NCBI GenBank assembly: GCA_021800535.1
Contig: JAJYYV010000005.1
Coordinates: 1-64,000 of the forward strand
From: a bacterium
GTDB taxonomy: Bacteria > Ratteibacteria > UBA8468 > B48-G9 > DTJG01
Direction of reading: 5' to 3'
DNA length: 64,000 bases
This document shows positions 943 to 49,815 of this stretch, piece after piece (positions within the stretch are counted from its first letter, which is position 1; every line of letters begins with the position of its first letter). The position numbers and the translations under genes are program-made. The notes under the pieces are model-generated. The model saw only the letters and a program-made list of their open reading frames with translations, was not told where the DNA came from and made no database searches.

Positions 943-966
943 AATATTTATTTTATCATAAAATAT

Positions 967-1080
967 CAATTTGATTTCATCAATATATCTTTGTTGGCTG
1001 CGGCGTCAGCTTCCTCAACATATAATTATATGCCTCGTTGCTTCCTTCTTGCCGCCGCGCTCTATTGCGAAATCATATTG
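967..1080. repeat. Intergenic structured repeat, copy 1
   Basis: Arms CAATTTGATTTCATCAATA (967-985) and TATTGCGAAATCATATTG (1063-1080) are near-complementary; core CGTCAGCTTCCTCAACATATAATTATATGCCTCGTTGCTTCCTTC is shared with 24654-24774. Confidence 0.75.
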
Positions 1081-1139
1081 CTATTACTCTAAGTTTAACT
1101 ACAAATTAGTATAAAATAATTGACATATTTTTTTTTTTA

Positions 1140-23991: not shown

Positions 23992-24659
23992 AACAAAAAA
24001 TTTGGCCGATTTTGTTAATAGCCATTCTTCTGTTTATACCATTGGGCTTTATACAGAACCAGATTAATTACGAAACAGTTGCTGATAATCTTCAGACAAA
24101 TCTTGTTCTTATGCCTGGAGAAGCCGGAGATATGGTTTTAGCCGGATTTAAAGGGATTGCAGCTGATCTTTTATGGATAAATGTTGAAAATTATTGGCAT
24201 AGAGGCGAACATTTTAAAATGATACCTTTGTTTTATATGGTTACATTACTTCAGCCTCATTGGATTTTAGCCTGGTCTTTGGGAGGTTGGCATATGGCTT
24301 ATAATGTTCCTGCCGGTGTTAAAAATATTCAGGGGAAATATTATTGGTATCAGCAAGGTATACAATTCTTAAAAAAAGGGGTTTCATATAATTCTAGTAG
24401 GTATGATTTATATTTTGAAACAGGATGGACCTATTATAATAAAGGAGAAGATTATTCAAATGCAGTAAAATATCTTAAACAGGCTGTTATATATCCTGGC
24501 CCGGATTATGTGAAAGATGTTTTAGCCCATGCTTATGAAAAGGATGGGCATATCAATCAGGCTATAAAAGAATGGAAAAAACTACTGCATACAGATTTTA
24601 AAGGTGTTGCCAAAAGAATGATATATGACCTTAATACACGCGGATGGGCCACCCCATAA
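23988..24659 (+). CDS. Membrane-anchored TPR-like protein
   Basis: Start MKQKIWPILLIA overlaps the permease stop (ATGA); N-terminal TM; C-terminal TPR-like YFETGWTYYNKGEDYSNAVKYLKQAVIYP. Confidence 0.7.
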   Translation: MKQKIWPILLIAILLFIPLGFIQNQINYETVADNLQTNLVLMPGEAGDMVLAGFKGIAADLLWINVENYWHRGEHFKMIPLFYMVTLLQPHWILAWSLGGWHMAYNVPAGVKNIQGKYYWYQQGIQFLKKGVSYNSSRYDLYFETGWTYYNKGEDYSNAVKYLKQAVIYPGPDYVKDVLAHAYEKDGHINQAIKEWKKLLHTDFKGVAKRMIYDLNTRGWATP

Positions 24660-24774
24660 TTGAATCCATCCAGATATCATCGTTGGTTTCGTCGTCAGCT
24701 TCGTCAATATACATTTATCGTATGTTTCCTTGCTTCCTTCTCCCCGCCTTGTTATCTGGCGAATTCAATTATGG
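24654..24774. repeat. Intergenic structured repeat, copy 2
   Basis: Arms CCATAATTGAATCCATCCAGATA (24654-24676) and TATCTGGCGAATTCAATTATGG (24753-24774) form inverted repeats; core similar to 967-1080. Confidence 0.8.
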
Positions 24775-24807
24775 TATATCCAATGTTGTTTTACTCTCTG
24801 GATAAAA

Positions 24808-29856: not shown

Positions 29857-30048
29857 ATGAAGGCTTATGATAAAGGAATAAAAGAAGGGTTTGAAGATTA
29901 TGCATATCATATAAAATCACAAGGATTTACAGCAGATATAAATACTAACTTAATAGAGCGATTTCTCGGAACAATAAAAGAAAGAACTAAAACAACAAGA
30001 GGATTTAAGTCTTGGCAAACAGCAGAAATAATACTTGAGAGATTTCAA
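29857..30048 (+). pseudogene. Truncated DDE-type transposase fragment
   Basis: KAYDKGIKEGFEDYAYHIKSQGFTADINTNLIERFLGTIKERTKTTRGFKSWQTAEIILERFQ resembles the C-terminal DDE region of transposases; plausible homology ends at ERFQ, ~30 bp before tRNA-Val. Confidence 0.65.
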
Positions 30049-30077
30049 TCCTGCACTTCTTATAGAGATTGCTATAC

Positions 30078-30150
30078 TGGGCGGTGCAGGATTTGAACCT
30101 GCGGCCTCTTCCGTGTGAGGGAAGCGCTCTTGCCGCTGAGCCAACCGCCC
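30078..30150 (-). tRNA. tRNA-Val(CAC)
   Basis: Minus-strand GGGCGGTTGGCTCAGCGGCAAGAGCGCTTCCCTCACACGGAAGAGGCCGCAGGTTCAAATCCTGCACCGCCCA: full cloverleaf, 7-nt anticodon loop CTCACAC; CCA not encoded. Confidence 0.95.
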
Positions 30151-49119: not shown

Positions 49120-49490
49120 CCTTTTTCCTCATACTCCTATTTGTCCGCGTGGGCATTCCTTAGATGTGGAGGCGGCGGGTACTGCCCCCTCATCCGTCGC
49201 ATTCGTTTCGCTCGCTCCTTAAAGGGGGAACAGGTTCCCCCTTAATATTCCCCCTAAAGCATGAGGAAACCCTTTTTCCTCATACTCCTATTTGTCCGCG
49301 TGGGCATTCCTTAGATGTGGAGGCGGCGGGTACTGCCCCCTCATCCGTCGCATTCGCTTTGCTCGCTCCTTAAAGGGGAACAGGTTCCCCCTTAATATTC
49401 CCCCTAAAGCATGAGGAAAACCTTTTTCCTCATACTCCTATTTGTCCGCGTGGACATTCCTTAGATGTGGAGGCGGCGGGTACTGCCCCC
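49120..49490. repeat. ~150-bp tandem repeat array (2 full units plus partial third running into ssrA)
   Basis: CCTTTTTCCTCATACTCCTATTTGTCCGCGTGGRCATTCCTTAGATGTGGAGGCGGCGGGTACTGCCCCC recurs at 49120, 49271 and 49421; periods 151 and 150 bp. Confidence 0.95.
49411..49433 (-). terminator. Hairpin downstream of ssrA (possible terminator)
   Basis: Perfect ATGAGGAAAA-CCT-TTTTCCTCAT 10-bp stem, ~35 nt beyond the tmRNA 3' end; no clear U-tract. Confidence 0.45.
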
Positions 49491-49815
49491 GCGTCCAGAA
49501 GAGAACAGGAAAGATATCTACCTATGTATCTCCGGTTTTTTTATCTTTTTCCAGTCTCCCCGAAGCAGGATTTATGGAAAAGATGTTTCTGTTATACTTT
49601 CTTCTGATATCCAGAAACAAAAGTTTCTCAGAATAAGCCCTTTAGCGACTCGTTTTCAAATTCCAAGGGCGGGAATTTGAACGAGTGGCTGTTTAGTTAA
49701 GCAGCCATAAAATTTGCCGTTGTGGCAGTTATGTTTTACCGGTTTTTAAAGGGCCCGGCACCTTTACAGGCAATCTTTTCCTTTTTTCTCTAATGTCGAA
49801 GCCTATTTCGCCCCC
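49468..49815 (-). ncRNA. ssrA: tmRNA
   Basis: Minus strand: 5' GGGGGCGAAATAGGCTTCGAC; 3' GGACGCGGGGGCAGTACCCGCCGCCTCCA; 7-bp acceptor stem; PK1-like GCCGGGCCC..ACCGG; candidate tag ORF GCC ACA ACG GCA AAT TTT ATG GCT GCT TAA (ATTANFMAA*); adjacent smpB. Confidence 0.9.

Follow-up and report, generated by a model that had tools for sequence, protein, structure and literature searches.

Two copies of a non-coding, self-complementary element lie in the window (the whole stretch of 64,000 nt analysed here). Copy 1 is flanked by a minus-strand gene whose product carries ThiI/tRNA-methyltransferase-type HUP domains and by an MFS transporter gene, and copy 2 sits between two genes that face each other, one for a TPR protein and one of the arginase family. 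The features are as follows:

964-1111, minus strand: copy 1, 148 nt, read on the purine-rich strand; covariance-model match of 140.5 bits (copy 1 is itself part of the model); ends on the plus strand TATC... (left) and TACTAATTTG... (right), placed by homology to the copies of genome G008
991-1057, minus strand: conserved core stem of copy 1 (alignments A2/A4 and fold)
about 24652-24776, minus strand: copy 2, about 125 nt; covariance-model match of 114.3 bits (copy 2 is itself part of the model)
24682-24747, minus strand: conserved core stem of copy 2 (alignments A2/A4 and fold)
24654-24667, plus strand: outer arm CCATAATTGAATCC of copy 2, within which the TPR-protein gene lying upstream has its stop codon, 24657-24659 (sequence and ORF list)

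The original prediction described a two-copy element at 967-1080 and 24654-24774, with a shared core and with outer arms that diverge between the copies yet are self-complementary within each. Both copies are real, and the shared core and the self-matching, divergent arms are present; the predicted coordinates are slightly short of the units listed above, and "two-copy" is an undercount, since the genome holds six to seven copies. In a dinucleotide-shuffle fold test, both copies beat 200 of 200 shuffles on both strands, with z values of -3.3/-4.0 for copy 1 and -5.4/-8.3 for copy 2 (the second value is that of the minus, purine-rich strand, which folds better). Copy 1 is taken as a 148-nt unit because the same-family genome G008 has 148-nt copies with target duplications; inspection of the flanks revealed no clear target duplication at either window copy. 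Elsewhere in the window, on the minus strand at 49120-49554, three tandem repeats with a period of about 150 nt (around 49421-49554, 49271-49404, and 49120-49253) are made up of the tmRNA 3' end (gene at 49465-49815) together with downstream sequence, a pattern that might stem from repeated integration, or from tandem duplication, at this end of the tmRNA.

A genome-wide search with the exact core word found two further strong copies in this genome, one on contig C31 that is near identical to copy 1, arms included, and one on contig C60 that carries a 34-nt nested insert; two to three weaker copies exist besides the four strong ones. A covariance model built from eight copies (with rough E-values, because its calibration was short) gave seven matches in this genome and one in its genus mate; G008 has 11 copies. 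A pattern scan of named genomes returned at least 114 stretches, most of them chance matches; the clear relatives among the matches listed (L068, L078, L105, and L114) belong to Syntrophaceae bog_1110, Smithella SDB_sulfate1, and HGW-Deltaproteobacteria-12 and -13, all labelled deltaproteobacterial or Syntrophaceae. The covariance model matched at least 115, at least 56, at least 24, and at least 21 times in these four genomes, the figure of at least 115 being that of one Syntrophaceae genome. With the same model the element was found in 35 of 119 Syntrophales genomes in a wider sample, in 27 of 396 Desulfobacterota genomes, and, with the window's own genome counted, in 11 of the 35 genomes sampled from its phylum or class. 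It is rare in a domain-wide sample, where two further genomes (G075 and G076) matched and a third match, G460, has coordinates and scores identical to those of G529 of the Desulfobacterota set. The element family is scattered over at least two bacterial phyla. Copy number is patchy, from 0 to more than 100 per genome, which fits a mobile repeat. Copies occur in both orientations and in all gene arrangements, and the single-contig genome G782 has near-identical copies (95-99%) at unrelated sites. No match to the element was found in phages or plasmids, Rfam 15 gave none for the window copies at gathering scores or for five relatives' loci at E<=1, and no description of this repeat family was found in the literature searched.

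Reading about 180 copies placed the exact ends at TACY...GGTA, the purine strand running from TACC to GGTA. The family measures about 120-150 nt: members are about 120-125 nt long in Syntrophales, and several copies in the window's phylum reach 148 nt through an extra outer stretch (TACTAATTTG...). The outer 20 nt of the 148-nt form (TACTAATTTGTAGTCAAA) also occur alone on two contigs of the window's own genome (L398 on C21 and L402 on C84), one of them immediately ahead of a gene resembling that of ribosomal protein S11; these solo stretches are remnants or a smaller derivative. For the flank counts, each end was placed separately by its resemblance to the consensus, T.A flanks earning a small bonus, and shuffled partners served as the control. 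The 3-bp flanks left and right, with the consensus TNA, agreed in 35 of 75 copies, where 15.2 were expected (p<=5e-5), in 8 of 11 copies in G008 (2.6 expected, p 5e-4), and in 6 of 8 copies in G782 (4.5 expected, p 0.03). The palindromic extension control at the flanks gave 5 and was not enriched, so the TNA flank is a direct duplication. Empty orthologous sites were located for L287 (in L177 and L158) and for L203 (in L194 and L277). Taken together, the TNA duplications and the empty orthologous sites indicate that the element is inserted DNA and not a fixed regulatory site.

Insertion takes place mostly between genes, at TNA, and often on a stop codon. Since the stop codons TAA and TGA fit TNA, a gene's stop codon can serve as the target triplet. 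With genes defined by mechanical ORF calls of at least 90 aa, the stop codon of a right-hand gene reading toward the element was the exact duplicated triplet in 22 of 55 cases, against 6 of 54 at the left end (Fisher p 8e-4), and a stop codon lay within 10 nt of the element in 35 of 55 cases on the right versus 11 of 54 on the left (p 6e-6). This orientation bias may reflect target choice or the removal of harmful insertions. Insertion at stop codons illustrates a way in which elements of this kind can spread and do genes little damage.

The core is the best conserved part, with a mean identity to the consensus of 0.85 versus 0.64-0.71 for the left arm. Across 99 aligned members, its 15-pair stem is paired in 93.7% of cells; 11 of the 15 pairs have changed on both sides, with 104 double-change cells versus 28.6 after shuffling, and the observed values were reached by 0 of 500 shuffles, with the caveat that the alignment was fitted to the model and that the shuffles ignore kinship. 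Sliding the pairing partner abolishes the signal. Ordinary and wobble pairs alternate with tandem G.A mismatches, one of which is exact in 92 of 99 members, and two pairs occur as GU, GC, and AU on the purine strand; this is the pattern expected of a folding purine strand, since the opposite strand would have A.C mismatches for the GU forms. The purine strand also gives the more stable fold in 65 of 70 copies. The purine-strand core can thus fold, with pairs kept through two-sided changes across phyla, and the covariation speaks for selection on a single-strand fold. Copies from different genomes (the C60 copy, L004 about 1460-1500; L195; L214; and L185:7883) contain small nested palindromes of the type TCCGCCTGTGGCGGA or CCCGATTCATCGGGA at about one position of the core, before GCCAAC.

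A partner enzyme was sought in genomes that are mostly draft MAGs, together with G782 as one contig with near-identical copies. An autonomous relative sharing the end pattern was not detected in G176/G128, in G008 and its relatives, or in G782, where the small element, fragments, and other repeats were the only matches. Matching ends and a transposase of the IS5/IS1031 type were not found, while the TNA duplication itself is present. Y1/RAYT proteins had no match in the draft genomes G000, G001, and G099 (this genome, its genus mate, and a genome with at least 21 copies); Y1 proteins are present in G098, G100, and G101. A larger repeat carrying the element was considered in G128, where the left flank is the same in six contigs; five of these were checked, and in three the triplet of the right flank does not agree with the left one, so that this larger repeat is most likely an assembly chimera. 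Also in G128, another palindromic repeat (GTAACTACTCAGG...CCTGAATAGTTAC and its relatives) is seemingly nested in or adjoins element copies (L305, about 1522-1672; L307, from about 1525). In the window, a short ORF at 29857-30096 resembles a DDE transposase fragment (NTNLIERFLGTIKERTKTTRGFKSWQTAEIIL); it adjoins a tRNA gene (30078-30150) and has no Pfam match.

The arms vary widely between copies and match within a copy. The original prediction held that such covariation implies selection on structure or intrastrand templating, and would have fallen had there been no further copies and no arm pairing above chance; in the wider family, arm sites pair more within copies than between them (at site 2 of the distal arm, for example, 103 of 133 are paired versus 71 expected). 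This inference is half right: the covariation of the core speaks for a selected fold, whereas for the arms the balance lies with intrastrand templating. That the arms covary solely by selection on the hairpin, through independent compensatory point changes and no arm-to-arm copying, is rather unlikely in our judgement. The clear covariation of the core pairs and of distal arm sites would suit such a history, as would the one clear compensated change between orthologous copies, an in-place double change in L180/L234, but most differences between orthologous copies are uncompensated, which speaks against selection alone. In four copies (L172, L200, L279, and L280) one and the same deletion is found in the left and the right arm. 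The 25-nt arm pair of L190 is perfect at positions where mismatches are conserved among its relatives, and in L187 a whole altered tract is matched on both sides and the old mismatches are gone, several long-standing mismatches thus being lost at once. Length changes of the two arms are associated across 117 copies (Fisher p 0.002), a few of the counted cases being family-specific anchor shifts. The paired identical indels and the tract conversions speak for templated arm homogenisation operating alongside selection. Arm-to-arm copying is not part of every jump, since mismatches between the arms survive in high-copy families and among the near-identical copies of G782. At two loci, copies lie in roughly the same place in opposite orientation (L279 versus L170/L114; L199 versus L191/L288), as would be expected from an inverted core or from a second, independent insertion. 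Several copies, L114, L168 (8136-8265), and L194, have some other hairpin-like sequence (CGGGAGCNCATNCC...GGGGNGCGCATANTAAA) in place of the right arm, a different repeat whose junction lies at the same point in each.

Other accounts of the whole element fare worse. A structured RNA or regulatory element, such as a hairpin at the 3' end of mRNAs, kept by selection and spread secondarily, would agree with the core covariation, with the wobble forms on the purine strand, and with the location at gene ends; it is very unlikely in view of the target duplications, the very patchy copy number, the near-identical copies at unrelated loci, the occurrence in both orientations and all gene arrangements, and the absence of an Rfam match, and a terminator function was rejected because no T-run terminator was found. 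Y1 elements make no target site duplication, and the 3-bp duplications therefore argue against a REP/REPIN-type element that a RAYT/Y1 tyrosine transposase moves in the form of folded single-stranded DNA. The hairpin form, the strand asymmetry with mismatches, the intergenic spread, and the Y1 proteins of three genomes speak for that alternative, as do the compensatory changes reported in REPIN spacers (PMC3116915), but the ends lack a GTAG tag and no Y1 match occurs in this genome, its genus mate, or the genome with at least 21 copies, which makes it highly improbable. Of the predicted "MITE/REP-like" nature, the MITE side (dispersed copies, 3-bp TNA duplications, filled and empty sites) is thus retained and the REP/RAYT side is given up. 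The idea that a core element inserted into pre-existing host palindromes, the arms being host DNA, can scarcely be right: arms do differ between copies, L162:9494 resembles A-tract/T-tract terminator arms, and REP dimers inside palindromes are known (PMC3733652), but the target duplications lie outside the arms, arm families are common to many copies at unrelated sites, and the empty sites in L177, L158, L194, and L277 have no arm sequences, which already contradicts it.

We propose that the element is a miniature, non-coding palindromic mobile element that inserts at TNA, has a folded core and arms recopied by template switching, and is moved by a transposase acting in trans; we regard this explanation as a whole as probable. 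The transposase would probably be of the DDE type. The strand-specific core fold might be what the mobilising enzyme or the host recognises, and such recognition would account for the core being better conserved than the arms. Template switching in the course of replication (quasipalindrome correction) would occasionally rewrite one arm from its partner; this would homogenise the arms and may also flip the core. In a bolder version, the element would be a structure-coded transposon spanning phyla, in which the tandem-G.A fold of one strand (as single-stranded DNA or RNA) is recognised rather than terminal repeats, any matching arm pair works, and the arms are rebuilt from each other; this we consider distinctly unlikely. 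The conserved one-strand fold makes structure-based recognition by the mobilising enzyme directly testable, and the family, with more than 100 copies in one genome, offers a natural replicate series for gauging quasipalindrome template switching in the wild. It also carries a warning that covarying arms in palindromic repeats need not signal selection on structure.

The elements are short, non-coding, and dispersed, with up to at least 115 copies per genome, a 3-bp TNA duplication, and terminal inverted repeats made up of TACC/GGTA and arms that pair within a copy, the arm sequence itself not being conserved. They make up a new non-autonomous family of palindromic, MITE-like mobile elements. 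Its unusual features are a conserved core that folds strand-specifically, a small number of conserved terminal bases, arms that vary yet match each other, and the frequent targeting of stop codons. A 3-bp TNA target duplication is also made by the IS1031 group of IS5-family insertion sequences, whose terminal repeats are unlike TACC and for which no linked transposase was found here; kinship with this group is a lead only. ERIC sequences are imperfect palindromes of about 127 bp, and we know of no stop-codon targeting or arm homogenisation in them. Geobacter, the host of the MITE Chunjie treated below, also belongs to the Desulfobacterota. Like the present family, ERIC is intergenic with very variable copy number between genomes (PMC10969869); it occurs in different taxa and is set apart by description, not by sequence. 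REPINs and the GTAG and CGTC REPs are likewise hairpin-forming intergenic repeats, the former with compensatory changes in their spacers (PMC3116915, PMC3733652), but REP units measure 20-40 bp, and the present element differs in its TACY/GGTA ends, its TNA target duplication, and its lack of a RAYT link. Template switching between short inverted repeats homogenises arms and inverts spacers (PMC8604942), and quasipalindrome mutations are described in E. coli (PMC7202029); this process would account for both arm homogenisation and core inversion between arms, and it is a mutation process, not an element. The Chunjie MITE of Geobacter uraniireducens (reviewed in PMC10969869) resembles the present element in being short, non-coding, intergenic, and multi-copy, with inverted repeats and direct target repeats. 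Chunjie is reported to be 178-235 bp long with conserved terminal repeats (PMC10969869), whereas here, judged by description and not by sequence, conservation is highest in the core, and the arms match each other despite their variation.
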